Virus record (IMG/VR): IMGVR_UViG_3300021963_000639
Location: 1-24,261 of that record
Direction: 5' to 3' (one strand)
DNA: 24,261 bases
DNA from: a virus
Shown: positions 1 through 23,374 of the stretch, piece after piece
Position numbering within the stretch: the stretch's first letter is position 1
Layout: every line of letters starts with the position of its first letter
Program-made: the position numbers and the translations under genes
Notes under the pieces: generated by a model
Seen by the model: the letters and a program-made list of their open reading frames with translations, nothing else
Told to the model about the DNA's origin: nothing
Databases searched by the model: none

Positions 1-751
1 GGAACTGTTGATAGAACTTTCTACGATCTCTCTGTTGAGGGTTCTCCCAAATCTCCAATGCATCATAGTCTTCCCATTCAGATTCTTTACCTGCGATTTG
101 TAGGTTTCGAGAAGAGGTGAACTCTTTGAAGTATTTGGTTCTTCCATTTGGTCTGCCGATATAAACAACCTTTGGAATAGTTCCAGCATGAAATTCAGCA
201 AACTCCATGCCAGATGCCATTGGTAAATCAACAGTAGTTGTGCCGATAGGGCATTTTAGAATAGTTGCAACTTCATTACACTCAGTGGCATTGGCTGCGA
301 TAGTCCAGCGTGACCAATCTTCATCAGGTAACAGTTCCCAAAGGAATGGAAGATCTGGATCGTCATTCAAAAAGATAATGCGACCTTTGTGTGCTTTAAT
401 CATCTCAACAGTTTTATCCCAGTACTTCTGATAGAACTGTAAGTTAGTTCCACCGAACTCAAGCATAAGAACATCACATTCCTGATAGTCAGAGAAAGTT
501 TCAAACCCATCATCTTTAGTTGGATCTGTTGCTTCTGATAAAGGAATGATTCGATAACCAAAGTCAAGCATGTTCTTGAATAGAGCAACACGTTTCTCTA
601 CCCAAGCACCACGAACACCATTCTCTTTATTGGTCAAACCAATCTTACCAGAAACTCTGCGATAACCAACTTTAGTTCCAGTATTGCTAGAGTTCTTAGA
701 ATAGAACCACTCTAGCAATCTTTCTTCACCAAGAAACTCATGTAGTGACAT
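1..751 (-). CDS. Beta-glucosyltransferase-like protein (GT-B type), 3' end cut by window
   Basis: The first 250 residues are visible and the frame stays open to the window edge. Start ATG at 751 follows an AAGG ribosome site and sits 8 nt after the dioxygenase stop, so the two genes are probably co-translated. I compared it from memory with T4 DNA beta-glucosyltransferase. It shows a Glu (E52) before an LFK motif (57-59) and a GYRIIPL strand, an FGG-x-N motif (99-103), and a NDDPDLPF motif (129-136) whose D131 aligns with the catalytic Asp100 of the T4 enzyme (FTDIRLPF). A later VVYIGRPNGRTKYF segment matches the start of the second Rossmann domain. By analogy it would transfer a sugar from UDP-sugar to a hydroxymethylated base in phage DNA. 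Overall identity looks low, so a GT-B sugar transferase is fairly likely but DNA as substrate is inferred from the neighbour. Confidence 0.55.
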   Translation of the reverse strand, partial: MSLHEFLGEERLLEWFYSKNSSNTGTKVGYRRVSGKIGLTNKENGVRGAWVEKRVALFKNMLDFGYRIIPLSEATDPTKDDGFETFSDYQECDVLMLEFGGTNLQFYQKYWDKTVEMIKAHKGRIIFLNDDPDLPFLWELLPDEDWSRWTIAANATECNEVATILKCPIGTTTVDLPMASGMEFAEFHAGTIPKVVYIGRPNGRTKYFKEFTSSRNLQIAGKESEWEDYDALEIWENPQQRDRRKFYQQF

Positions 752-759
752 AATAAACC

Positions 760-2061
760 TTACGCAAAAAATTCATCAAGGGATCCAGACTTTTGTGAAT
801 CTGGATGATATTTAAGTAACTCTTGTTCACCTAGTTTGTCTCTGCAGTATTCATACCACTCATCAGAAGTCCACATACCTTCGGAAACACCATTCCAAAG
901 TTTACGTTGCATTGGATGTTCAGGATTCTTTCTGCGAGATTCAACAAACTCATAACGACAGTTCTCATATTCCCAAGAACCCAATTCAAGCATCTTCTCA
1001 CGGAAGTAGCAAACCAAACTGATACGCTCAGATCCTTCTTCACAAACAATAGGCGTATTACCATGCATAACATCATGGTTGTTAATCAATAGCAAGTCAC
1101 CTGGACGTGGATTAACAGCAACACGATACTCAGGTGCAATCAAATAACCACCACTGTAACGTCCATCGTTTGACAAAGTCAATAGATTTGAAAGACCACT
1201 ATTCAAATCACCAACGTCTGTATGGGCAGCAGTTCTGAAAGTCTTATTTACAGTAACAGTTGTAAAAGGAGTTCCAGGAACTAGGAAACGAGGATCGACT
1301 TGTATCGCTGCTTTCATCTGTGCTTCATAACGCTGTGGAAGTAAATCCCTAAAACCATTGGATAATGTTTGTAGGAATGGGTAAGCAAGTGCAAACTTCT
1401 CTGGATTCTTGGCAGTATAAGATGTTGCACGACCATAAGGAATGCGAGGATAACGATCGAACCAACCTGCGATACCAGAGTAAACTGAGTTAGCGTAGGT
1501 AGTTGCACAAATCAATTCATCAGCAACAAAGTTTGCTTCTTTGATCTGTTCTTGTCTTGGTAGTGCACGAACTTTCTCAACCCACTGGTCGAAATTAAAA
1601 TTGGTAGACTTAGTTCTTTCAATAGACCAAACATTATTGCGATTAGATGGAGTAGGTGGTTTACCTTTGTATCGTTTGATAATGTCCTCAACAGGATCTC
1701 CTGCAAGACCAGAATATGGATCTAGGAAATACTCAACCATTTCAGATTCATATTCAGTAACCCATTCACGATTACCCAACTTCTCACCACGTGGACCTGC
1801 TGCAGCACCACGATTCTGTGTTTCAGTTGCAGCTTCACGAAGACCTGCATACGCTTGGTCTTGCTGTTCTTTGGTGAAGAAGTTCTTACGGAACTTCAAT
1901 ACAATCCTATCTTCATTGATAGGATCTTCACCATAAGGTGCTGGCATGTAAACATCCGTATCTTCTTCAATAAGATGATCGTAATGATTCTCGTCAACGA
2001 ATTGACCAATCAAATGTTTACAATCAATCTTTTTATCGGCAACAATAACTTTAACTGTCAT
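760..2061 (-). CDS. TET/JBP-family 2OG-Fe(II) dioxygenase (DNA base hydroxylase)
   Basis: 433 aa; ATG preceded by AGGAG with 6-nt spacing. The catalytic double-stranded beta-helix is in the C-terminal half: AAHTDVGD gives the iron ligands H280 and D282, HDVMHGNTP gives the distal H333, and ERISLVCYFRE gives R346, the 2-oxoglutarate salt-bridge Arg. The HTDxGDxxxG arrangement and the SGGYL / RPGDLLL strands are typical of TET/JBP enzymes, which hydroxylate 5-methylcytosine or thymine in DNA. The N-terminal ~250 residues are an unassigned extension. The protein ends GSLDEFFA, very like the clamp-binding tail SSLEDFFG of the polymerase in this window. It is followed by a glucosyltransferase-like gene, which suggests base hydroxylation then glycosylation. 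Family confidence is good; whether the substrate is 5mC or T cannot be read from the sequence, and no C5-methyltransferase is in the window. Confidence 0.8.
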   Translation of the reverse strand: MTVKVIVADKKIDCKHLIGQFVDENHYDHLIEEDTDVYMPAPYGEDPINEDRIVLKFRKNFFTKEQQDQAYAGLREAATETQNRGAAAGPRGEKLGNREWVTEYESEMVEYFLDPYSGLAGDPVEDIIKRYKGKPPTPSNRNNVWSIERTKSTNFNFDQWVEKVRALPRQEQIKEANFVADELICATTYANSVYSGIAGWFDRYPRIPYGRATSYTAKNPEKFALAYPFLQTLSNGFRDLLPQRYEAQMKAAIQVDPRFLVPGTPFTTVTVNKTFRTAAHTDVGDLNSGLSNLLTLSNDGRYSGGYLIAPEYRVAVNPRPGDLLLINNHDVMHGNTPIVCEEGSERISLVCYFREKMLELGSWEYENCRYEFVESRRKNPEHPMQRKLWNGVSEGMWTSDEWYEYCRDKLGEQELLKYHPDSQKSGSLDEFFA

Positions 2062-2070
2062 ATTATTCTC

Positions 2071-3468
2071 CTAAAACTTAAATCCACTAAATTCGTTTTC
2101 ACTATGTAGTCGTTTGCCAAAATCTGATTTATCAAATACTGGCTCGTCTCGTTCTTTGGTCCCAACATCAGACAAACCTGCTTGCGCAGAAACTTCAACA
2201 TCATACAACTTCATCTTAGATCTATCAATACCAACCACAAACCTCTTGTAGAAATTTGGGTCATTGTAACGATTCTTCAACTGTTTAACAATAATCTGGT
2301 TTAACTGTTCAAGTTCTTCATTACTAACCAACGCAAACATAAAGTCAGCTGTAGCTGGCAAACCAAACGACTCAGAAGTATCTTCAAGTCCTGGATCTGA
2401 ATTGGTGAAACCAGATCGAGTAGTTTGTGTAGCAGAAACAATGGGAACATTACATTCTACTGCCAAGCCACGAAGTTCTTCAGCAATCGCCTTAATATAT
2501 GTATAAGAGTTCACACCATGTGTTTGCTTCATTCTAGACGAAGCACAGATATTCAGATAATCAATAAAGATAATATCTGGAGTAAACTCTCTCTTCATTT
2601 TTAATTCTTCCATCAAAGCACGGAAATGACCAGCATGAGCACCAGCAGTTGGATACTCTTTAACAATCAGTGTTCCTTGTGTCTTTGTAGCAATCTTCTG
2701 TAGACGAGAATCAAAGATATCTCTGTCAACAACTTTTAATTCATCCATGGTTAGGTTGAGTAAGTTTGCATCGATACGTTCAGCGATACGTTCTTCTGCC
2801 ATCTCCATTGTTATGTATAAAACATTTTTACCCTGCATCAGAACACTGGCTCCAACGTGACACATAAACAACGACTTACCAACACCTGTTCCTGCCAAAG
2901 CAATATTCAAAGTTTTCTTACTTAAACCACCTTTGGTGATTTTATTGAACATCTCAAGATCGAAAGGAATCTTCTCTTCAACCCTGTGATAAAAATCATA
3001 TCGTTCATTAGCATCTTGAATGTAGTCATGACCAACGTGATTATCAAAGCAAACACCAAGTGCTTCGCTAAGAATATTAGGAATAGCATCTTGCTGATGA
3101 ACTTTGTCTCTACCATCAATAATTTGAATTGACTTTAGAATCGCATTATAAACTGCTCGGTCTTTACAAAACTTCTCAGTCTGAGTAGTCAACCATTCTT
3201 CATTAGGTTCTTTGTTAGTCAACTCTTTGGCATACTGTAGAAACTCAGGAACTTCTTTATCAGTCAACCCTGTAATGTTTCCAATCTCAATAGCCAGAAT
3301 CTCAGGCGATGCTGGTTTATTATACTGCTCAAAAAACTGAACTAAGATTTTAGCAATAGCACTTTCTTTACGATCAGCAAAATACTCAGTCTTTAAATGA
3401 GGAACTACCTTTCGGCAGAACTCCTCATTGTGAATCAGGTTCGATAGGATCGCCTGTTCTATTCTCAT
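2071..3468 (-). CDS. 41: Replicative DNA helicase, DnaB family (T4 gp41-like)
   Basis: 465 aa from ATG 3468 (AGGTGG ribosome site 5 nt upstream); a GTG at 3477 is also in frame but lies too close to the ribosome site. T4 gp41 is 475 aa. The N-terminal ~165 residues are the helical DnaB-N-like part. The RecA-type motor follows: Walker A LAGTGVGKS (about 191-199), the DnaB-type MEMAEERIAERI segment (about 221), Walker B IIFIDYLNI, and VPIVSATQTTRSG corresponding to the DnaB motif with the gamma-phosphate-sensing Gln. It would unwind the replication fork 5'-3' as a hexamer together with a primase not seen here. It overlaps the end of the gp40-position gene and lies in the uvsX-40-41 order of T4. 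Its stop is 9 nt before the dioxygenase start. Confidence 0.93.
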   Translation of the reverse strand: MRIEQAILSNLIHNEEFCRKVVPHLKTEYFADRKESAIAKILVQFFEQYNKPASPEILAIEIGNITGLTDKEVPEFLQYAKELTNKEPNEEWLTTQTEKFCKDRAVYNAILKSIQIIDGRDKVHQQDAIPNILSEALGVCFDNHVGHDYIQDANERYDFYHRVEEKIPFDLEMFNKITKGGLSKKTLNIALAGTGVGKSLFMCHVGASVLMQGKNVLYITMEMAEERIAERIDANLLNLTMDELKVVDRDIFDSRLQKIATKTQGTLIVKEYPTAGAHAGHFRALMEELKMKREFTPDIIFIDYLNICASSRMKQTHGVNSYTYIKAIAEELRGLAVECNVPIVSATQTTRSGFTNSDPGLEDTSESFGLPATADFMFALVSNEELEQLNQIIVKQLKNRYNDPNFYKRFVVGIDRSKMKLYDVEVSAQAGLSDVGTKERDEPVFDKSDFGKRLHSENEFSGFKF

Positions 3469-3763
3469 CAACACCACCTGTATACGTTAAATTATTATTA
3501 GCAATACCTTCATGAATAAGATCTTGAAGTATATCACCTATGTATTTCTCAAAGGGTTTCATATCAGTGATAACCTTATCGCTGTAGTCAAGAACTTCAT
3601 ATTCAAAACTAATTTTCAAAGCATCGTTGGTTTCATCTTCTTCGAAACCAACTCTACCATATTGATAAATTATACCTTCATATGCACCATCTGTCAACTT
3701 TATCGCATCATGACCATTACTGCGATTTTGCACAGCAGTATAATTACGTAGATTATTCTTCAT
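3425..3763 (-). CDS. 40: gp40-position protein (putative head vertex assembly chaperone)
   Basis: 112 aa starting MKNNLRNYTAVQ at an ATG that overlaps the last codons of uvsX; an upstream in-frame extension inside uvsX is not needed. The middle reads DGAYEGIIYQYGRVGFEE and ALKISFEYEVLDY, a small acidic beta-rich domain, followed by a helix (EKYIGDILQDLIHEGIA) and a polar tail. Between uvsX and 41, T4 has gene 40 (114 aa), whose product is annotated as an initiator or chaperone of head-vertex assembly. Position and length agree with that. The assignment rests mainly on synteny because I see no catalytic motif. Its end overlaps the helicase start by 44 nt. Confidence 0.6.
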   Translation of the reverse strand: MKNNLRNYTAVQNRSNGHDAIKLTDGAYEGIIYQYGRVGFEEDETNDALKISFEYEVLDYSDKVITDMKPFEKYIGDILQDLIHEGIANNNLTYTGGVDENRTGDPIEPDSQ

Positions 3764-4820
3764 CATCAATTGCAGCAAGTTCTGCATCAATATCTTCATC
3801 TTTAAGGATATCTGATGAACCTACTTGATATTTGTTTTTAACAAACTCAATAAAAGACTTTTGCATAAGCACTGGCATCCAAAAATCTTTAGTGTCTGTA
3901 TCTTTGAGACGATATTTCTTATCCTCAATCACACCATCTTGGTCTACCTTGGAATACCAACCATTGCTTGGCTTAACAACATGCCCACTTTCGAGTGCGA
4001 TATCGAGTAAACCAGACCAACGGCTAATACCACCATCATGATATACAGTAACAGGAATCTTTGACTTCTCACGAACATAACGAGATTTCTCCACGTTGAT
4101 AATAAAATTATATCCAACAACTTCAGTCCCTTCTTTCTCTTGTTGACGACCAAGGATGTATACGTTATCCGCTGAGTACATAGCACCAGTTCCACCACCA
4201 ACGATAGGTTTAGGGAACATACCAATCTCCATATATGTATGATTAACAACAACCAATGGAATATCTTTAAGATTCAAGTGTGGTGTAATCATACGGAACA
4301 ATGACTTCATCTGCTTGGCACGACTCATGTCTGCAACAGATTTGCCATCAAGTGCATCTTCTACTTCCTTTTTAGACGCAAGATTACCAATAGAATCAAT
4401 AACAATAATAAGATGGTCGCCACGTTCAACTCCTTGTAGCTGTTGCATAATATCAAACTTCAACTGTTCAACGTCAGTTAGTGGCGTATGGATAACACGC
4501 TCTGTATCAATCCCAAAAGAATCAAAGTATGCCTGTGGTGTTCCAAACTCTGAGTCATAGAACAACAATGCAGCATCTGGATACTTGTCCATGTAAGACT
4601 TAGCCATTAGCAAACTGAATGCTGTCTTGAAGTGTTTGCTTGGTCCAGCCCACATTGTGATACCTGGAGTCAAACCACCATCGAGACGACCAGACAAAGC
4701 AATATTGATTGCTGGTACAGTGGTAGGAATCATATCCTTCTTCGTGAAGAACTTTGATTGTGAAAGAATAGCAGAATCTTTAATTGTACTATTCTTGCGA
4801 ATTTTATCTAGTATACTCAT
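3753..4820 (-). CDS. uvsX: UvsX, RecA-like recombinase
   Basis: 355 aa from ATG 4820 (AGGAG, 6-nt spacing); a TTG six bases upstream is in frame but not needed. Walker A is GPSKHFKT (59-66), the UvsX-type variant of the RecA P-loop. LLFYDSEFGTP holds the catalytic Glu region, LIIVIDSIGNLASKKE is Walker B, and VVVNHTYMEIGMFPKPIVGGGTG leads into the DNA-binding loop 2. The C-terminus is acidic (IDDEE), as in RecA-type proteins. It forms filaments on ssDNA for strand exchange, recombination-dependent replication and repair. It is the first gene of a unit headed by the promoter at 4840-4868 and leads to 40, 41, the dioxygenase and the glucosyltransferase. Confidence 0.95.
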   Translation of the reverse strand: MSILDKIRKNSTIKDSAILSQSKFFTKKDMIPTTVPAINIALSGRLDGGLTPGITMWAGPSKHFKTAFSLLMAKSYMDKYPDAALLFYDSEFGTPQAYFDSFGIDTERVIHTPLTDVEQLKFDIMQQLQGVERGDHLIIVIDSIGNLASKKEVEDALDGKSVADMSRAKQMKSLFRMITPHLNLKDIPLVVVNHTYMEIGMFPKPIVGGGTGAMYSADNVYILGRQQEKEGTEVVGYNFIINVEKSRYVREKSKIPVTVYHDGGISRWSGLLDIALESGHVVKPSNGWYSKVDQDGVIEDKKYRLKDTDTKDFWMPVLMQKSFIEFVKNKYQVGSSDILKDEDIDAELAAIDDEE

Positions 4821-4839
4821 TTTCAACTCCTAAAATTTT

Positions 4840-4870: not shown

Positions 4871-5425
4871 TTATTTTGGGTTAGATTTGTGATGCGGAAC
4901 ATCGAATACAAACGTCACACGAACTTCATTGCCAACATTTTCAGTTCCATGTTGCAATTTATTATTGAACCACAACAAAGTTCCTGGCTCTACTATGTAT
5001 TCTTCATCTCCAACCATATATTTGTATCTACCTGCAATGGATAAATGATAACGATCCCTAGTCTGATAGTAGCTACCAATGTCTATATGTTTGCCAACAT
5101 TACCACCAACTGGTAATGACAAAAATCCACAACGTGAATGGTCATGGAAATTTCTCTTCATAAATCTAACAATTTCTGTGTGTCTGTTATACGCAGGTGT
5201 TTTAATACAATACTCTGTGTCGCCAACATATTGAGTTTCATTCTCAACTCCACCAATAATTAACTGCAAAACACCTGCATTTATTTGTGGAAAATCAAAT
5301 TCTTTCTGAACTGTAGATGCACCTTTCATCTGTGATTCAGAGTTCCAATCATCTTTGTAAAGTTTTAATTGAGCAAGAATCTTTGATACGTTGATTCCTG
5401 TTTTAATAACTTTAATATTATCCAA
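4871..5425 (-). CDS. Asp/Asn beta-hydroxylase-type 2OG-Fe(II) oxygenase (cupin fold)
   Basis: About 184 aa if it starts at TTG 5425, which has a perfect GGAGG 6 nt upstream; an ATG at 5458 is in frame but lacks a spaced ribosome site. The C-terminal half has GKHIDIG (H113 and D115), KLQHGTENVGNEVR (H159 and R169) and the strand VRVTFVFDVPHH. This HxD...H...R pattern with EPGTLLWFNN is typical of the aspartyl/asparaginyl beta-hydroxylase group common in T4-like marine phages. The iron ligands appear intact, so it is probably active, but the substrate is unknown. The start overlaps the polymerase stop by 8 nt, implying translational coupling. It is not closely similar to the TET/JBP enzyme downstream. 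Confidence 0.75.
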   Translation of the reverse strand: MDNIKVIKTGINVSKILAQLKLYKDDWNSESQMKGASTVQKEFDFPQINAGVLQLIIGGVENETQYVGDTEYCIKTPAYNRHTEIVRFMKRNFHDHSRCGFLSLPVGGNVGKHIDIGSYYQTRDRYHLSIAGRYKYMVGDEEYIVEPGTLLWFNNKLQHGTENVGNEVRVTFVFDVPHHKSNPK

Positions 5426-7907
5426 AGAAATCCTCCAACGATGACTTGGCTTCAACATTCCAACCAATCGGCTGTATTACAGTTTGCATTGCATCAAGGA
5501 ATGTCTTTTCAAACTGCTTTTCATAATCAACAAAATCATGCAAGCTAAACTCTTTCGGCAACTCTTGCGGGAAAGCGATAACATCTTCTTGGAATGGATT
5601 TGGTTTTCTCATGTAAACAAACTTAATCTTTTCACCCTCTTTAATCAACTGATACTTCTTCTCAAGTCCAAGTTTCTTTACATAATGATTGTAAAGTAGC
5701 GAACCTCTAACATGAATAGGTGTTCCCTTTGCATAGATCGGAGAGCCAGCATAAGTCCTAAGTCCATTCACACTACGTGGGAAAGCAATATCCTCTAATG
5801 GCATTTGGTGGAATTTTTCACGGAATGTTTCGATATACGTGTGTAAGTCCGCTTGATTACCCTTGAGAATAACTTCGATCGAACTCTTAAGTTTGTCACG
5901 AATAACAGCAGGTGTACTTGACTTGACCATTTCAAGCCCCATAACTTTGAGTTTCGGTTTCGCATATTGCACTCCTTCAGAATTGTGTACGTTCAATATG
6001 TATCTTTTCTTGGCAGTCCAGATACCCTTATCAGCAAGAACCTCACGTTTCATAATCATCTTCTGTGAATATGCGTTCATATACTCACCCAATTTTTGAT
6101 ACGTCTGGTCAATGAATGGTTGGAAGATCTCTTCGCAAACCTTATCCATATATTTAATTTTCTGTTCGTCAGTTTTACCTTCGCAAACTTTCTCGATCAG
6201 TTCTTCCATTGTTAGATAGATTGAATCGGTATCAATCGCAATAACAAAGTCTTTACCTTCTGTCTTGAGAACTTTATTCATATAGCGATTAAACTCATTT
6301 GCCATCCAACGAATAGACAACTGACCAGAAGTAGTAATACCTTCAGCCATTCGAATATCGAAGTAACGGAAGTATTGATTACCCAAAGCACCATAAGCTG
6401 AATTCAATGCAATCTTCATTGCCATCTGCAGGTTATTCAGTCGGCTAATCTCTTTGAGAAGTTCTTTCTTGGATTTGTCGTTCTGATATTCCTGCTCAAC
6501 CTTCAGCATCTGCTTTTTAAACTTACTGCGATCGGTATACATCTTTTCCATCAACTCAGGTAGGAAACCTTTAACATCTCTACGGTAAGTCCAACCATTG
6601 GCAGTCAATGCAAGATCTCTACGCTTTAAGTAAGAGGTATCAACTTCCTGATTAAGAAGTCGTTCAACATTACAGGAAAGTTTCTCACCACTCATAGTTT
6701 CAGGTGAGATGTTGTATTGCATAATCAAGTGAGGATACAAACTGTTTAAGTCAAAAGAAGCAACCCACTTGTGCATTCCAATCAATGGGTCTTTGACGAA
6801 AGCACCTTCAAATGCTTCGTTCTTACTAGATCTACCATTCGTAGGAATGGCAACTTTCTTTTTGCGAAGATGATTATACGCAATGGCATCCCACATTCTT
6901 ACTTGAGAGAAAACATCTTCGTAGTTAATCTTTGCGTTGTATGCCATAGTAAGACACAACTCAATCAGTCGCATCTTATCTTCGAGTTTATCAACCAACT
7001 CTACGTCGTGAATGTTATACTCAACAAACTTTTGCCAATGATTTGCATAAAAGTCTTTGAACGAATCACCTGGATTTTCTTTCTTTGCATCATCAAGTTC
7101 TTCGCTGGCAATATAATCCAAACGATAGGACTCTTGCTTTTGATAGGTAAACTTCTTATACAAGTCAAGATAGTCAAGTTGACTTACGCCATGAATGTCA
7201 AATGAAATTTCTTCGTTACCCTTAACAAAGATCTTACGTTCATTGATATATCCCCATGGTGAAAGTTTGGCTGCAATCGCTTCGCCAAGTTCACGCTGAA
7301 TACGTTTAGTTAGATATGGTACGTCAAAGAATCCAATGTTCCATCCAGTGAGAACATCAGGATAATTCTGTTGCCAGAAAATCATAAACTCTTTGAGTAG
7401 TTGTTGCTCATCTTTGCAACGGAAGTATGTTACATCCGTGCGAGTGTTTTCAAACTCACGTGTGCCAAAAGTCACAATCTGTTTAGACTGGAAGTCTTTG
7501 ATTGTGATTAGTAGAATCTCTTCGTTGGCTTGTTTAACGTCAGGAAAGCCATCCTCTACTGCAGTTTCAATGTCGATGGTAAATACTTTAATCTGTTCCA
7601 TGTCCCAACGAACATCACTCTCATAAGTGTCGCTGATATATTGGTGAACATAATTGGTATTTCCATAAACAGAAAATCCCTGGACATCTTTGTAGCGATC
7701 CACGAACTCACGTGTTTCTTTTACAGTTCCAGGTTTAACCTCGTCAACAATCTGTCCATCAAGAGTACGCCATTGGCTATCTGCTTTGTTTGATGTTACA
7801 TAAAGTGTTGGGTAGAAATCTATCTTACGTTGAAATTGTCTGCCGTTTTCATAACCTCTAACATACATTTTGTTGCCAAAGGGGAATACGTGCGAGTAAA
7901 AAATCAT
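5418..7907 (-). CDS. 43: B-family DNA polymerase (T4 gp43-like)
   Basis: 829 aa (T4 gp43 is 898). The 3'-5' exonuclease motifs are intact: FTIDIET (D112, E114, the same numbers as in T4), WNIGFFD (D195) and YNIHD (D301). Polymerase motifs are SFDLNSLYP (motif A, D386), KIALNSAYGALGNQYF (motif B, from K498) and AIDTDSIYL (motif C, D559/D561). The last residues, KSSLEDFFG, form a hydrophobic clamp-binding tail comparable to the PIP-like C-terminus of T4/RB69 gp43, so it should ride on gp45. Start ATG 7907 follows the DexA stop by 3 nt. Unlike T4, regA is not adjacent: it lies about 7.3 kb upstream in transcription order. Confidence 0.97.
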   Translation of the reverse strand: MIFYSHVFPFGNKMYVRGYENGRQFQRKIDFYPTLYVTSNKADSQWRTLDGQIVDEVKPGTVKETREFVDRYKDVQGFSVYGNTNYVHQYISDTYESDVRWDMEQIKVFTIDIETAVEDGFPDVKQANEEILLITIKDFQSKQIVTFGTREFENTRTDVTYFRCKDEQQLLKEFMIFWQQNYPDVLTGWNIGFFDVPYLTKRIQRELGEAIAAKLSPWGYINERKIFVKGNEEISFDIHGVSQLDYLDLYKKFTYQKQESYRLDYIASEELDDAKKENPGDSFKDFYANHWQKFVEYNIHDVELVDKLEDKMRLIELCLTMAYNAKINYEDVFSQVRMWDAIAYNHLRKKKVAIPTNGRSSKNEAFEGAFVKDPLIGMHKWVASFDLNSLYPHLIMQYNISPETMSGEKLSCNVERLLNQEVDTSYLKRRDLALTANGWTYRRDVKGFLPELMEKMYTDRSKFKKQMLKVEQEYQNDKSKKELLKEISRLNNLQMAMKIALNSAYGALGNQYFRYFDIRMAEGITTSGQLSIRWMANEFNRYMNKVLKTEGKDFVIAIDTDSIYLTMEELIEKVCEGKTDEQKIKYMDKVCEEIFQPFIDQTYQKLGEYMNAYSQKMIMKREVLADKGIWTAKKRYILNVHNSEGVQYAKPKLKVMGLEMVKSSTPAVIRDKLKSSIEVILKGNQADLHTYIETFREKFHQMPLEDIAFPRSVNGLRTYAGSPIYAKGTPIHVRGSLLYNHYVKKLGLEKKYQLIKEGEKIKFVYMRKPNPFQEDVIAFPQELPKEFSLHDFVDYEKQFEKTFLDAMQTVIQPIGWNVEAKSSLEDFFG

Positions 7908-13354: not shown

Positions 13355-13489
13355 TCACATCAAATAATAATCTTCTTTACCAACGCCACACTCAGGACAA
13401 AGGAAGTCATCGGGAAGTTCTTCCCATTTACCTTCTGTTTGTTCATCATGTACGTGGCCACATACTACACAAATATGTTGTTCGTTCAT
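13355..13489 (-). CDS. Rubredoxin-like protein, 44 aa
   Basis: Begins MNEQHICVVCGHVHDE and continues ELPDDFLCPECGVGKEDY. C7-x2-C10-G and C31-P-x-C34-G are the two knuckles of a one-iron rubredoxin site; LPDDFLCPECGVGK is a textbook rubredoxin phrase. At 44 aa it is slightly shorter than free rubredoxins (~52-54) and lacks the usual Y-x-CxxCGYxYD aromatic start. ATG 13489 overlaps the rubrerythrin stop as ATGA, so the two are translationally coupled. It would pass electrons to the rubrerythrin diiron centre. Confidence 0.85.
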   Translation of the reverse strand: MNEQHICVVCGHVHDEQTEGKWEELPDDFLCPECGVGKEDYYLM

Positions 13490-13938
13490 AATGTCTCCAT
13501 AACTTGTTTGTAAGCATTAGCATGACGCTCTTCTACTTTCTTCAAAGCATTGAAACGCTTTTCTGCTTTTGCCAACACAGCCTTAAATGCTTCTGCATGT
13601 TCAAAAGATTCTTCAATCTGACCACGCATTTCTTTTTCTGCTTGTAGATTTCCTTCTGAAACTGCAATCGATTCAAACTTTGGATACATTTCTGTATACT
13701 CATAAGTCTCTCCATCAATTGCTTTCTGCAAACATTCCTTAGTGGATGGCTTGCCGATTAACAATTCAAGGTGTCCCCATGCATGTTTAATTTCTTGATC
13801 GGCAGTATGTTCGAAGTGTTTTGCAACATCTTCGAAACCTTCTTCACGAGCAATCTTAGCGAAGTAACGATATTTGATATGAGCCATAGACTCACCAGCC
13901 AATGCGCTCTCAAGATTTTTTAATGTTAAAGAACTCAT
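13486..13938 (-). CDS. Rubrerythrin (ferritin-like diiron protein) without rubredoxin domain
   Basis: 150 aa from ATG 13938 (GGAG 7 nt upstream); a TTG six bases earlier is not needed. Four-helix-bundle motifs: LAGESMAHIKY (E16), ADQEIKHAWGH (E49, H52), TYEYTEMYPKF (E83) and QIEESFEHAEAF (109-114), supplying the Glu/His ligands of two irons. It should reduce hydrogen peroxide, as in the erythrin/rubrerythrin family. Classical rubrerythrin has a C-terminal rubredoxin domain (~190 aa total); here that part is a separate, ATGA-coupled gene. The start overlaps the previous stop, also as ATGA. Confidence 0.88.
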   Translation of the reverse strand: MSSLTLKNLESALAGESMAHIKYRYFAKIAREEGFEDVAKHFEHTADQEIKHAWGHLELLIGKPSTKECLQKAIDGETYEYTEMYPKFESIAVSEGNLQAEKEMRGQIEESFEHAEAFKAVLAKAEKRFNALKKVEERHANAYKQVMETL

Positions 13939-14069
13939 TTGCAATCTCCATAAGAAGCCATCAATTTTTTGGCTTCCTCATGTTTACCATTTCTGGCAAG
14001 ATCTGCTGCTGCTTTGGCGTAACCAATTCCCTTTAAGGTTATATAAACTTTGCGGAAAAATGTTTTCAT
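13935..14069 (-). CDS. Small basic protein, 44 aa, in stress cassette
   Basis: ATG 14069 overlaps the Hsp20 stop (TAATG), and its TGA overlaps the rubrerythrin ATG (ATGA). It reads MKTFFRKVYITLKGIGYAKA and continues ADLARNGKHEEAKKLM, two amphipathic helices with a basic N-terminus. No family recognised. The overlaps on both sides argue it is translated. A role linked to Hsp20 or the diiron protein is inference. Confidence 0.6.
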   Translation of the reverse strand: MKTFFRKVYITLKGIGYAKAAADLARNGKHEEAKKLMASYGDCK

Positions 14070-14545
14070 TATTTCTCCTCATTCAATAATTGCTTTTCAC
14101 CTTTAGACTTAATAGCAACTTTCTTTGGTTTATTTTCTTCTGGTGTTAAACGCTCTAAAGCAATCTTTAACATACCATTGAAAAGTTCTGCGTCTTTAAC
14201 TTCTACGTTATCTTCCAACGCAAACCAACGAGTAAATGCACGATTAGCGATACCTTTGAATACAAAGTTTTCATCATCAGGTGTGTTGCTAACATTACCT
14301 TTGATGATTAACTTACCACCATCGATTTCAATATCGATATCTTGTTTAGAGAAACCAGCTACAGCCAATTCAACTGTATATGTGTTCTCTCCAGTTTTTC
14401 GAATATTGTATGGAGGATAGTTAGGGATGTTCTTTGTAATCTGATCATGCATTTCTTTATATTGGGCAAGCTGTTTGTCAAACCCAATAAAGAATTTGTC
14501 TAGTTCTTTATCATTCCAAAATGTTGGAACAAATTGACGATTCAT
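14069..14545 (-). CDS. hsp20: Small heat-shock protein Hsp20 (IbpA-like)
   Basis: 158 aa from ATG 14545 with AAGGGG upstream; an in-frame extension inside the phasin-like gene is rejected. An N-terminal arm (FVPTFWNDKELDKFFIGFD) precedes the alpha-crystallin domain at about 45-145: PPYNIRKTGENTYTVELAVAG, DIDIEIDGGKLIIKG, IANRAFTRWFALEDNVEV, and NGMLKIALERLTPE. The order and phrasing closely follow E. coli IbpA/B. It would hold unfolded proteins in the infected cell. Hsp20 genes are common in T4-like cyanophages and marine myoviruses. Confidence 0.93.
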   Translation of the reverse strand: MNRQFVPTFWNDKELDKFFIGFDKQLAQYKEMHDQITKNIPNYPPYNIRKTGENTYTVELAVAGFSKQDIDIEIDGGKLIIKGNVSNTPDDENFVFKGIANRAFTRWFALEDNVEVKDAELFNGMLKIALERLTPEENKPKKVAIKSKGEKQLLNEEK

Positions 14546-14555
14546 AATGTTCCCC

Positions 14556-14780
14556 TTACTTAGTTGCGAATACTTTTTTAGCATCAAGAGAAGCTGCAGC
14601 TGTACCAACTGTAGTGAAAAATTCTACAGATGACTTAGCGACAGTCTTAGCAAATGATTGCTGAGCATCGATAAAAGTTTGGAGGGATTTTGCGACTTCT
14701 TCGTTTTTAACAAATGTCTTAACGAATTGAGTCTTTGCACCAGAGATGGTGTCGATGGATGTGTTTAATGCTTCTAACAT
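14556..14780 (-). CDS. Phasin-like protein, 74 aa
   Basis: ATG 14780 with AGGAG 6 nt upstream. A nearly continuous amphipathic helix: ISGAKTQFVKTFVKNEEVAK, LQTFIDAQQSFAKTVAKSSV, then EFFTTVGTAAASLDAKKVF. The LQxFxDAQxxFAKxxxKxxxEF phrase resembles phasins, which coat polyhydroxyalkanoate granules in proteobacteria. It is shorter than typical cellular phasins (100-180 aa) and no granule synthesis gene is present, so it might instead act as a helical chaperone next to Hsp20. It is the first gene after the hairpin-rich region. Confidence 0.6.
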   Translation of the reverse strand: MLEALNTSIDTISGAKTQFVKTFVKNEEVAKSLQTFIDAQQSFAKTVAKSSVEFFTTVGTAAASLDAKKVFATK

Positions 14781-19681: not shown

Positions 19682-20848
19682 TTAAAATGGAACTTCCTGA
19701 GTAGGTTCTTGCACAACAGGTGCTTCCACTACAGGTTCGGGTTGAGGGTTTGCAACTTTATCATACAAGTCAATGAATGCAGCTTTCGTTGCAGCATCGA
19801 AACGATTGCAACAAAGTTGGACTGCTTTCTCCCTGTTCTTGAAGATTGCAAATGCACGAACGATATGGATCATACGACGAGTCGTAATTGTTTCATCCAC
19901 ACCACCATCCTCGAAAGTGCGACGGATTGCATCTGCCCACTTCACAAGGGTCTCTGCAAACTCTTCGTCAATACACGAATAAGTTTCCATGAGATTCTTG
20001 ATAATCTTAATCTCAACTTTTGCTGCTGGATATTCCTGTTCAAAGGTAACAGCGAATCGCTCCAAGAATGCTTCGTTGAGTACGTTAGTACCGATGTAAC
20101 GACCATCGTCACTACCCTTACCCTTAGTGTTCGCAGTTGCAATAACATTGAATCCAGGTGCAGGGACAATCATTTCATTTTTGAGTTTAAAGTAATATGG
20201 TTTACCCTCAAGAATCGGTTGCAAGCACAATAGAGTATTGGCTGAACCAGCATCAATTTCGTCAAGCAATAATAGAGTGCCAGTACGCATAGCGATAAGA
20301 ACTGGACCCTCGACAATTTCCACGTTACCATTTTCAAGAGTTTTGGTACCGATGAGTTGTTCTTCATCAGTCATCATGTTAAGGTTAACACGAATCAATG
20401 GACGTTTGTATTTGGCACAAATCTGTTCAACCATGGTAGACTTACCATTACCAGTCGGACCACTGATATATGCAGGGTAGAAAATTGCTGACTTGATAAT
20501 AACTTCCAAGTCTGAGTAGCTACCAAAGGGAACGAAGTTATTGTCCTTCTTAGGAATCAACGATTCAGTATTTGTATAATCAACCACGAAAGACTCTACA
20601 GGTTCAGATTTAGTTTTGATAACAGTATTCCCAACTACAGCAGTAGCAGGTTTACCACCATTGATTGAATACAACCCACGACCAACAACATCTTGCATTA
20701 GCCACAAAGGATGATAATCAATTTTGTTCTTAGTACGAACTTCCAGCAATTGCTTGCGTGTCACAGTGCCACTGGTTTTAACGTCAGGGAACATTTCAAA
20801 GAGTTTATCTTCGAAGAATGCTTTTTGTTGCTCAGTAATTTTTGCCAT
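19682..20848 (-). CDS. cobS-like: MoxR/CobS-type AAA+ ATPase
   Basis: 388 aa from the second of two tandem ATGs (20848), which has the better-spaced GTGAG site. Residues 1-64 are a small module shared with the 145-aa protein. The AAA+ core has Walker A GPTGNGKS (130-137), Walker B LLLLDEID (192-199), sensor 1 VIATANT (235-241) and LERF with the arginine finger (262-265). Such proteins are annotated CobS in T4-like cyanophages by resemblance to the cobaltochelatase subunit, but more generally MoxR ATPases work with VWA partners to remodel proteins or insert metals. The VWA partner is the next gene upstream in transcription. A Pro/Glu/Val-rich tail ends in QEVPF. Confidence 0.85.
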   Translation of the reverse strand: MAKITEQQKAFFEDKLFEMFPDVKTSGTVTRKQLLEVRTKNKIDYHPLWLMQDVVGRGLYSINGGKPATAVVGNTVIKTKSEPVESFVVDYTNTESLIPKKDNNFVPFGSYSDLEVIIKSAIFYPAYISGPTGNGKSTMVEQICAKYKRPLIRVNLNMMTDEEQLIGTKTLENGNVEIVEGPVLIAMRTGTLLLLDEIDAGSANTLLCLQPILEGKPYYFKLKNEMIVPAPGFNVIATANTKGKGSDDGRYIGTNVLNEAFLERFAVTFEQEYPAAKVEIKIIKNLMETYSCIDEEFAETLVKWADAIRRTFEDGGVDETITTRRMIHIVRAFAIFKNREKAVQLCCNRFDAATKAAFIDLYDKVANPQPEPVVEAPVVQEPTQEVPF

Positions 20849-20880
20849 CATTCACTCACTTTCATAATAAAAAAACAATT

Positions 20881-21094: not shown

Positions 21095-21140
21095 AACCCT
21101 CTATTCCAGAGGGTTTGCAAGACCCTACAATCCGTAGGGT
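21095..21140 (-). terminator. Tandem hairpins after the VWA protein gene
   Basis: Two hairpins with matching design: ACCCTAC/GTAGGGT (21122-21140, 5-nt loop GGATT on the minus strand, beginning within the stop codon) and AACCCTCT/AGAGGGTT (21095-21115, loop GGAAT). Neither has a U-tract on the minus strand, but the second has four T directly beyond it on the plus strand. They separate the VWA gene from promoter P3. Confidence 0.6.
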
Positions 21141-23374
21141 TATGCCACATAGCCAATAAAGTTGTTCAGAAGGACTCGGCTAGTTTTCTTGGTATTCAAG
21201 TACTTACCAAAGTTCTTTGCAATAGACTTAGCATTAGCGTCTGGATTAACATCCAACTCACCCTCTTGAATCTTAGTTGATGATTGAGGAATCAGGAACA
21301 AGTCATCACGACCTGTATTCTTGATTGACGCAAAACCCTTGCTACGGAAATCTTTCCTCCACTCATCAATTAGGAAATACTCACTACCCCTAAATTCTGG
21401 AAGATTAGCACCGATTGCGCAACGTAAGTCACGACGATTATTTTGACAGATATGAAAACCTAGTACTGCAATTTCATAACGATCTTTCATCATCTGCAAC
21501 AATGTTCTGGTTTGTTGATTACCATACCTAGTAATCTCATAAGTCTTTTGTGTAATCTCATCACGGATATAATGCTTCTGTTTGATACGTTTGTATTCAG
21601 AACCAATAATTTCAGTCCGAGTATCATCAAGACCACGATGATGACCAACAGCACTCAAAGAATGTCCTTCGCCATCGGTGAGAGTGATGAAAGTCATCTT
21701 CTCGATATTGTTGTTTTTAACAAACGAACCGATGTTGTTGTAGCACCATACCAATGCTTCATTTAATGGAGTGCCACTGGTTTCATAACCCTTGTTCCAC
21801 TGAAACTTCCAATGCAGCAAACGACGTGACATAGAATTAAATTCACTGGTAGTCATCTTGTTGCTAAACAATTCAAGAAGATTAAATGGGTTAGATGCAC
21901 TACCAATTAGTTTCTCGTGTTCAGCTTTCGCTAGTTTTGCTTGATTGAATTCACGTTCATATTGGTGTCTTTTTGCACGTTCTTCATCTGAGGTATATGC
22001 AAGTTCACGATTGTAATCGAAATATGCTGTAGTAAAAGCATATACACGATATGGAATTTGAACACGATTACAAAACATAGCCAAGTTAATAACTTGTTTG
22101 ATAGTATCTTGCAATACATCACACATAGAACCAGACCAATCAACCAACATAATCATACCATGGTTTTTACCCTCAGGTAATGTAGTCACACGTTTGAAGA
22201 TATCATCTTTGAGTTTATATGCATAAACTTTCTTCATGTCCAAAGAACCAATCTTGGAAACTTGAGCACGTTTGTAAAGAGTAGCACTCTTACGCATCTC
22301 AAACTCTTTGACAAGATAATTCACTGCACGACTAGAATCAACTTTGAATTGTTCAAAATCTTTCTTCTGTTTATTTTCCATATTGGAGATATCTTCTTCG
22401 CTCCAATAATTATATCTTCGTTGTGGATTCTCATCACTCGGCTCAAGCCACTGCTCTGGTGATTTTGTTTCTGAAAGAATTTTCTTGAATGGAACAACAA
22501 CTTCGTCCATATATTCACTGTCAAACTTCCAGTAGTTATACTCAGTACTTTCGTCAGCGAGTTCGCTTAGTTTATTGGCAAAGTTGCGTTCAGTCTTTGA
22601 CTCAAGATCATCTTGTTCATTGGACTGCTCATCGTTTTGCTGGGACGATTTTGAATTCTGGATTGGTTTATCCAATTTCTCCATATCATCGAGTTCTTCT
22701 TCATCAAACTCTTCGTCATAGTTGATGTCAAAATCTCCCTCAATAGGATCTTCATCATATTCAGAATCACCATCGTCATCTTCAGGATCGCCCATTTCGA
22801 TGGCTTGCTGTTTACGATCTTCAATTTGTTTCTTGGAAAATTCATATACGTCAGTTGCTAAAGCAATGACATCGTCAATGGTTTCGGTGCGTTCAGCACG
22901 TTCTACAAAACTCTTTTCTTCAGGTGTGAATTTAACACCACAGAATGCACCTGCTTTAAAGTAAAGATTAATCTTGTCGATGAGCAACAAATCGTTCATT
23001 GATTGAACCTGACCAACACCAAAGAAGTCACGATCGTTGAGTTGTTTATATCCATCACTCATACGTTTACGTAGACCTGGATATTTACGTTTGATTAGTT
23101 TCTCGATACGCACGTCTTCGATGACGTTTAAATAACCACGGATTTTTGGGTTATCTTCGATGGGTTTCATATATGCGTCAGTCGTGTATAGTGCGTGACC
23201 AACTTCATGACCAATCAACATATCTTCAATTTCTGGGGACATTTCTTTCCACATAGGAAGAGTCAACACACGACTCTTGATGTCGAAAGATGCAGTGCGA
23301 GTTCTTGCACGAACCACTGAGAGATTCTCAGTTGCAAGAAGTCTTGCGGATAGATCGCTAGATTTAATTTCCAT
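21140..23374 (-). CDS. cobT-like: HExxH metallopeptidase-like + VWA (CobT-like) protein
   Basis: 744 aa, GGAG 8 nt before ATG 23374. The N-terminus has MLIGHEVGHALYTT (H56-E57-x-x-H60), a zincin active site, with YLNVIEDVRIEK providing a candidate third zinc ligand (E86) as in gluzincin-like metallopeptidases. A long acidic stretch follows (about 195-265, Asp/Glu/Asn/Gln-rich). The C-terminal half is a von Willebrand A domain: IMLVDWSGSMCDV supplies the DxSxS MIDAS (412-416), with later FITLTDGEGHS. This layout matches CobT-type partners of MoxR/CobS ATPases. The AAA+ partner is two genes downstream. Expected role is ATP-driven remodelling or processing of a target; target unknown. Confidence 0.82.
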   Translation of the reverse strand: MEIKSSDLSARLLATENLSVVRARTRTASFDIKSRVLTLPMWKEMSPEIEDMLIGHEVGHALYTTDAYMKPIEDNPKIRGYLNVIEDVRIEKLIKRKYPGLRKRMSDGYKQLNDRDFFGVGQVQSMNDLLLIDKINLYFKAGAFCGVKFTPEEKSFVERAERTETIDDVIALATDVYEFSKKQIEDRKQQAIEMGDPEDDDGDSEYDEDPIEGDFDINYDEEFDEEELDDMEKLDKPIQNSKSSQQNDEQSNEQDDLESKTERNFANKLSELADESTEYNYWKFDSEYMDEVVVPFKKILSETKSPEQWLEPSDENPQRRYNYWSEEDISNMENKQKKDFEQFKVDSSRAVNYLVKEFEMRKSATLYKRAQVSKIGSLDMKKVYAYKLKDDIFKRVTTLPEGKNHGMIMLVDWSGSMCDVLQDTIKQVINLAMFCNRVQIPYRVYAFTTAYFDYNRELAYTSDEERAKRHQYEREFNQAKLAKAEHEKLIGSASNPFNLLELFSNKMTTSEFNSMSRRLLHWKFQWNKGYETSGTPLNEALVWCYNNIGSFVKNNNIEKMTFITLTDGEGHSLSAVGHHRGLDDTRTEIIGSEYKRIKQKHYIRDEITQKTYEITRYGNQQTRTLLQMMKDRYEIAVLGFHICQNNRRDLRCAIGANLPEFRGSEYFLIDEWRKDFRSKGFASIKNTGRDDLFLIPQSSTKIQEGELDVNPDANAKSIAKNFGKYLNTKKTSRVLLNNFIGYVA

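Follow-up and report, generated by a model that had tools for sequence, protein, structure and literature searches.

A TET/JBP dioxygenase and a predicted T4 BGT-type glycosyltransferase as a probable DNA hypermodification pair of uncultivated T4-like phages

Hypermodification systems in which a phage TET/JBP dioxygenase (PF12851) is combined with the glycosyltransferase TAGT (PF20691) were reportedly described by Burke et al. in 2021, and the fold of TAGT is presumably GT-A. In phage T4 the partner of the β-glucosyltransferase (BGT; PF09198, GT63) is the dCMP hydroxymethylase gp42, and the b-gt gene sits between gene 42 and uvsX-40-41. Phage thymine hypermodification uses the nucleotide of 5-hydroxymethyluracil (5hmU), which is made by a relative of thymidylate synthase. 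The sections of a 2019 article devoted to such pathways describe that 5hmU enters DNA as a nucleotide and that 5hmdU kinase and transferases act on it, that in kinetoplastids JBP1/2 and JGT oxidise thymine in DNA and then glucosylate it to base J, and that glucosylated 5hmdU is unreported in phage genomes (PMC6449724). Here we analysed the entire IMG/VR record IMGVR_UViG_3300021963_000639 (24,261 bases, hereafter the window), a fragment of a T4-like phage genome in which the gene of a predicted TET/JBP dioxygenase (TET) is followed by p1, the gene of a predicted glycosyltransferase of T4 BGT type; both names are also used for the products. The features of the pair are as follows.

2..751, minus strand: p1, predicted GT-B glycosyltransferase of T4 BGT type, represented by the first 250 of about 335 residues, with no stop before the window's first base
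359..361, minus strand: D131 of p1 in the motif DDPDLPF, aligned by hhalign (weak alignment) with the catalytic D100 of T4 BGT, present in 35/35 rows
752..759, no strand: spacer of 8 nucleotides (nt) from the TET stop to the p1 start, taken from the reading frames, with identical length in many relatives
760..2061, minus strand: TET, predicted TET/JBP-type 2-oxoglutarate/Fe(II) dioxygenase of 433 residues (Pfam, profile, model), a long form in which about 200 residues precede the part matched by Tet_JBP
1222..1224, minus strand: H280 of TET, in the HxD iron motif (HTDVGD), conserved in 27/27 aligned rows
1216-1218, minus strand: D282 of TET, in the same HxD motif, conserved in 27/27 rows
1207-1209, minus strand: D285 of TET (HxD+5), a position with D, N or S across the rows
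1063..1065, minus strand: H333 of TET, presumed distal iron histidine, identical in 27/27 rows
1024-1026, minus strand: R346 of TET, presumed 2-oxoglutarate residue, identical in 27/27 rows

Judged from its model and its domain match, the product of 760-2061 is a TET/JBP dioxygenase with the iron and 2-oxoglutarate residues intact, as the first-pass annotation of this DNA had proposed together with the gap of 8 nt to a second gene. Pfam Tet_JBP (PF12851) matches residues 211-355 with an E-value of 9.5e-25 (87.2 bits against a cut-off of 34.9) and a profile of TET relatives retrieves human TET2 from the PDB with an E-value of about 5e-11. Modelled over its whole length (pLDDT 86.6), the protein has TET2, CMD1, NgTet1 and CcTet as best matches with Z scores of 17.4-19.3, whereas ALKBH3 and other 2-oxoglutarate (2OG) oxygenases reach 13.9 and lower. 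The roles of H333 and R346 are those we assume by analogy with TET2 and NgTet1, and the predicted function is the oxidation of 5-methylcytosine (5mC) or thymine in DNA. The HxD+5 residue, aspartate in most long TETs, asparagine in the short ones as well as in L029 and serine in L069, was considered as a mark of base specificity and dropped. Homologues of TET are present in nine phage records, among which one genome is represented more than once, with 49% identity in Stenotrophomonas phage DLP6, 45% in Caulobacter phage Cr30 and 43% in C48C1. Six of the nine annotate the protein, wholly or partly, as 'SNF2 DNA repair protein', and this label, found on TET homologues in GenBank KU682439, KF301602, MG450654 and MN698246, looks like a propagated misannotation.

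The full-length p1 protein was read from related contigs such as L002 (L002:3536-4540), whose protein is 97% identical to the part in the window. The 250 visible residues have no significant match in Pfam, PHROGs or the PDB sequences, and searches with p1 of NCBIfam and, using three queries, of 50,697 phage records likewise gave no family; matches to interleukin-2 were discarded as chance, and BFVD contains one family member, 65% identical and named 'Uncharacterized protein'. A model of the L002 protein derived from a 35-row alignment (pLDDT 92.3, pTM 0.89) gave T4 BGT as all of the top five Foldseek matches in the PDB (7.8e-10 to 2.3e-8), and in the VIA comparison it matched T4 BGT with Z 22.7 and a root mean square deviation of 3.3 over 295 residues at 14% identity, the best non-BGT chain being TarM (Z 17.9) and T4 AGT reaching Z 17.3. 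The predicted fold of p1 is thus clearly GT-B with T4 BGT as the nearest solved structure, about 5 Z units ahead; the full-length model did not turn out to be anything other than GT-B, and the resemblance to BGT seen in the first pass is borne out at the level of structure.

At the level of sequence this resemblance is weak. The profile of the p1 family compared with an alignment of seven BGTs (T4 and six relatives) gave an E-value of 3.9e-4 and a probability of 35% in local mode, and 4.4e-5 and 41% in global mode, whereas the p1 profile (A3) had no useful alignment to T4 BGT as one sequence (probability 1.3%) and only the seven-sequence alignment matched over the full length. Both modes place D100, R191, R195 and R269 of T4 BGT on D131, R200, R204 and R270 of p1, which are all invariant in the family. 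The alignment at D100 proposed in the first pass therefore stands, but at E22, also proposed there, the two modes disagree, as this residue falls on E43 in the local alignment (33/33 rows reaching there) and on K53, next to the conserved E52, in the global one. E272 of T4 BGT, which we take to be the UDP-ribose glutamate, is replaced by H273 in all 35 rows of the p1 family. With the BGT model PF09198 at E<=1 none of 22 p1 members was found, compared to 9.4e-98 for T4 BGT itself, so that sequence does not place p1 in the BGT family although the fold match is clear. In summary p1 shares with T4 BGT the fold, a similar length, the four aligned positions and a gene location near uvsX-40-41, and it differs in its sequence, in H273, in the uncertain counterpart of E22 and in having TET as partner instead of gp42.

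A profile-derived search confirmed 94 relatives of p1 in IMG/VR, of which 80 were kept, and found one locus in GTDB genomes. For the linkage count short and near-identical frames were removed and 43 of 106 frames were used. Of these 43 p1 genes, 41 have a TET gene on their own strand at a distance of up to 2.5 kb, just upstream in 36 cases and just downstream in five, and the two genes without TET are L115, where the contig is cut 107 nt upstream, and L117, a true exception. The association covers long TETs (about 430-475 residues, T4-like contigs) as well as short TETs (about 265-305 residues), and on some contigs with short TETs a ParB-like gene, TET, p1 and a HAD-like gene stand in a row with terminase one gene further. 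The HAD-like gene encodes a 150-residue protein. Among 80 adjacent pairs (redundant loci included) it shares 4 bases with the end of p1, at the stop, in 69, and in the window phage it would sit just past base 1 of the window. Five residues, D6, D8, S59, K102 and D117, presumably the HAD motifs (DxDx and others), are invariant in 21/21 rows of this protein; the family libraries give it no name, with a marginal Hydrolase match (0.084) for one of the 21 members. A third 2OG oxygenase, besides TET and one near uvsX (see below), separates TET from p1 in five loci, of which two belong to one contig (L001, L006, L011, L012 and L084), for example at L006:7184-7777 and at L012:9408-10001, the latter matching TIGR02466 with 4.4e-17. 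The interpretation of TET and p1 as a DNA hypermodification pair is supported by the predicted fold of p1 and by this conserved linkage, and p1 would act on DNA; that the two enzymes glycosylate a pyrimidine in the phage DNA seems very likely to us.

For the profile searches 35 records each were covered with PF00145, PF00303, TAGT and the p1 profile, 36 each with PF18724 and PF18751, and 18 with gp23. TAGT, the usual partner of a phage TET, had no match in the window and none in the 26 records with p1, in agreement with the view of the first-pass annotation that the pairing is unusual. PF20691 matches DLP6, S-CBWM1 and P12024L and, below the cut-off, Cr30, all four without p1. From 23 TET loci lacking p1, six have TAGT directly behind TET and eleven have an amino acid:DNA transferase gene cluster within five genes, the rest being three contig-cut starts of a transferase-type module, two loci with a GT4-like glycosyltransferase and one cut locus; the TAGT score in L054 is 4.8e-19. 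In L067, TET is followed by glutamine amidotransferase, an amidoligase-like gene (score under the cut-off), GNAT, one gene of no assigned class, amino acid:DNA transferase (PF18724, 3.7e-22) and a kinase, and the kinase behind the transferase is a P-loop kinase (PF18751). Relatives with the transferase module and without p1 include TETs that are 67-74% identical to the TET of the window. Matches to PF18724 and PF18751 are confined to records without detected p1; G030, which the PF18724 model misses, was checked over only 21 kb (as L069). Sequence comparison thus indicates that the genes behind TET are exchanged repeatedly in T4-like relatives, with a BGT-type enzyme, TAGT or an amino acid:DNA transferase plus kinase in this place.

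In the TET tree, with 51 rows after near-duplicates and four rows without labelled partner had been dropped, the BGT-type label needs nine changes, or at least six when only well supported branches are counted. For all seven labels 15 changes are needed (minimum 6; shuffled mean 17.4; equally low in 3 of 200 shuffles), but the label 'GATcut' probably represents the transferase module cut by contig ends, which inflates the figure of 15: two rows with identical TETs bear the 'GATcut' and the transferase label. The figure for the BGT-type label is independent of 'GATcut'. The ADDT and TAGT labels are no more clustered than expected by chance (values equally low in 175 and in all of 500 shuffles, respectively). 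Six named phages were labelled by hand, L068, L069, L070 and L073 received 'ADDT' via BLAST clustering only, and the tree carries a long-branch warning, with L077, L079 and L016 included. S-CBWM1 has a row of TET, TAGT, an annotated capsule biosynthesis phosphatase (HAD models below their cut-offs) and an annotated sugar nucleotidyltransferase, and Cr30 (L075) has TET with an amino acid:DNA transferase (PF18724, 2.4e-54) nearby and an inositol-1-phosphate synthase. In C48C1 (L076:13317-15349) the genes behind the TET homologue encode a 344-residue protein of no assigned class and a UDP-galactopyranose mutase (GLF, 5.6e-52), which suggests a possible galactofuranosyl modification of DNA.

Whether the oxygenase makes 5-hydroxymethylcytosine (5hmC) or 5hmU had been left open in the first pass, and for the long-TET lineage the evidence now leans towards 5hmU, although this is unproven. 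As stated there, the window is free of a methyltransferase: neither the C5-methyltransferase family PF00145 nor PF00303, the gp42/thymidylate synthase family, has a match in it. Both are also missing from the long-TET lineage as covered by 15 virus records carrying p1 (31 to 160 kb; G001-G009, G011, G013, G014 and G016-G018, with the contig of G006 ending inside p1 and its TET unseen), and gp23 was found in 7 of 12 such records searched. PF00303 has no match in the 25 virus records with p1, which are fragments, and PF00145 none in the four named phages that have a complete genome (139-168 kb) and a homologue of TET (DLP6, Cr30, C48C1 and S-CBWM1). DLP6, C48C1 and S-CBWM1 are also without PF00303, and Cr30, having a PF00303 protein and an amino acid:DNA transferase, is an unclean example of TET alone making 5hmU. 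As thymine is already a 5-methyl pyrimidine and needs no methyltransferase, it is the most likely substrate of TET in the T4-like lineage. TET shares its place with the amino acid:DNA transferase, for which we assume 5hmU as substrate (PF18724), and with the 5hmU kinase, enzymes of a type familiar from thymine hypermodification, and thus it would most simply make 5hmU. The missing C5-methyltransferase and gp42-like enzyme in the 15 records together with the module exchange therefore favour a pathway from thymine via 5hmU to a sugar-hmU over one from 5mC via 5hmC to a sugar-hmC. T4 BGT glucosylates 5hmU in oligonucleotides to base J in vitro, according to the part of PMC4111573 concerned with this reaction. 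DLP6 DNA is listed as restriction-resistant in the table of a review (PMC8228603), and the DLP6 paper names a panel of 18 restriction enzymes, the outcome being absent from the section concerned. We regard the thymine version of the glycosylation by TET and p1, leading to a base J-like product, as evenly balanced, and we hold only tentatively the broader idea of a viral base J pathway in which TET is the common first step and the BGT-type enzyme, TAGT or the amino acid transferase with its kinase are exchangeable second modules.

Cytosine is the strongest competitor of thymine, and we consider it possible though rather doubtful that a C5-methyltransferase, either from the host or from a phage gene off the contig, produces 5mC, which TET would oxidise to 5hmC and p1 would glucosylate like T4 BGT. 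A number of points weigh against thymine or, more generally, against the proposed role of p1. The phage TETs characterised in the work of Burke et al. from 2021 reportedly act on 5mC, and the fold of p1 is that of BGT, a 5hmC enzyme. The HxD+5 residue leaves cytosine versus thymine unsettled, and of ten other p1 virus records one, that of the short-TET relative G022, contains a PF00145 protein at 3.4e-77. IMG/VR contigs are fragments and a methyltransferase could therefore lie outside of them; the host might also provide it, or it might not be a PF00145 protein. In their relevant parts, one publication describes a phage TET model acting on cytosine (PMC12730594), another states that TAGT in T2/T6 works on cytosine-linked glucose (PMC13216743), and a third that T4 BGT acts on duplex 5hmU only when it is mispaired with G (PMC4111573). 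The sequence of p1 is also very far from BGT, with 14% identity and without a Pfam BGT match, and together with H273 and the missing firm counterpart of E22 this means that its donor and other details may differ. Finally, L117 (L117:7983-8996) is the only non-redundant p1 with full flanks that has neither TET nor the HAD-like gene, and its phage may obtain hydroxymethylated bases by another route. Cytosine is opposed by the lack of PF00145 in the 15 long-TET p1 records and the four complete phages, by close relatives in which this TET precedes genes of an amino acid:DNA transferase and a kinase, and by the distance of about 12 kb between the methyltransferase and p1 in G022. The substrate base may also differ between the long-TET and short-TET lineages.

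It is improbable, in our view, that the final base carries no simple monosaccharide but for example a phosphorylated or elaborated sugar, with the HAD-like protein acting after the transfer. The overlap of the HAD-like gene with the p1 stop and its five invariant residues, the row of genes in S-CBWM1 and H273 in place of the BGT glutamate would fit such a product, but no family library names the HAD-like protein and its role is a guess. Least probable is that TET modifies DNA whereas p1 has a surface glycan or a protein of phage or host as its acceptor, their neighbourhood being due to operon history: GT-B folds serve many acceptors, bacterial glycan and protein glycosyltransferases (TarM, Gtf3) come next after BGT among the structural matches and L117 has p1 without TET, but the adjoining TET at 41 of 43 p1 genes holds for two TET types and both gene orders, and the best structural match by about 5 Z units is a DNA glucosyltransferase.

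The minus strand of the window encodes a gp45-like clamp, a gp44-like clamp loader, RegA, a ligase, a family B polymerase, UvsX and a gp41-like helicase, and TET and p1 come straight after the helicase gene on the same strand. The location inside the uvsX-41 operon given in the first-pass annotation is therefore nearly right, as the pair follows gene 41. The neighbours nearest to it are the following.

2071..3477, minus strand: gp41-like replicative helicase, directly upstream of TET (DnaB_C 9.8e-20; phrog_19 9.7e-129)
3753..4826, minus strand: UvsX-like recombinase (T4_UVSX_C 3.8e-16; phrog_97)
5418..7907, minus strand: family B DNA polymerase, gp43-like (DNA_pol_B 5.8e-26; phrog_262)

Between polymerase and uvsX lies a second 2OG-type oxygenase (4871-5467, minus strand; Asp_Arg_Hydrox 1.1e-6), the family of which recurs in relatives. 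Further away, adjoining genes at 13486-13944 and 14069-14780 (minus strand) encode a rubrerythrin (9.4e-19), an HSP20 (2.1e-17) and a phasin-like small protein (0.0086, below cut-off), neighbours that to our knowledge are unusual in a T4-like phage; the phasin-like protein would point to a polyhydroxyalkanoate-making host. A CbbQ/NorQ-type AAA ATPase (19682-20851, minus strand; AAA_5 1.1e-18, CbbQ_C 1.6e-5) is found near a 744-residue 'peptidase' (21140-23374, minus strand; phrog_459), in an arrangement resembling MoxR-VWA pairs.

For the pair itself we propose a model in which TET would oxidise the 5-methyl group of a pyrimidine in replicated duplex DNA to 5-hydroxymethyl, most likely thymine to 5hmU. 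The location of TET beside replication genes fits a hydroxylation after replication. In a second step p1 would bind the modified base and, with D131 as possible base catalyst, move a sugar, probably glucose from UDP-glucose, onto the hydroxymethyl group, giving a base J-like nucleotide. The HAD-like protein would probably help in the supply of the sugar donor or trim a phosphate, and the modified DNA could resist host nucleases or other defences. TET would functionally replace gene 42, though TET and p1 come after gene 41. Like the TET-TAGT systems the locus combines a TET/JBP dioxygenase with an adjacent glycosyltransferase and, as proposed here, a post-replicative sugar on a hydroxymethylated pyrimidine, but the partner is a BGT-type GT-B enzyme with a HAD-like protein, TAGT is missing and the long-TET p1 records have no C5-methyltransferase. 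The likeness to phage thymine hypermodification lies in the PF18724 and PF18751 genes behind TET in relatives of the window TET; unlike there, the T4-like IMG/VR records show no thymidylate-synthase relative, which TET would replace. If thymine is the substrate the pathway resembles kinetoplastid base J (PMC6449724) in its steps, here with phage enzymes flanked by phage replication genes. In the literature searched, with subscription papers mostly outside, we found neither a TET paired with a BGT-type enzyme nor a sugar on 5hmU in phage.

The p1 family is an unnamed glycosyltransferase family, here from uncultivated phages, which has T4 BGT as nearest solved structure yet accompanies TET and not gp42. 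It would be a new glycosyltransferase class in TET-based phage hypermodification, and thymine is the probable, though unproven, substrate of such a system. The exchange of modules behind one TET makes a concrete and testable claim on the base that phage TETs oxidise, and new DNA glycosyltransferases and thymine-specific TETs would be useful as base-mapping reagents. If the thymine version is true, these phages would provide a parallel to the base J of trypanosomes.

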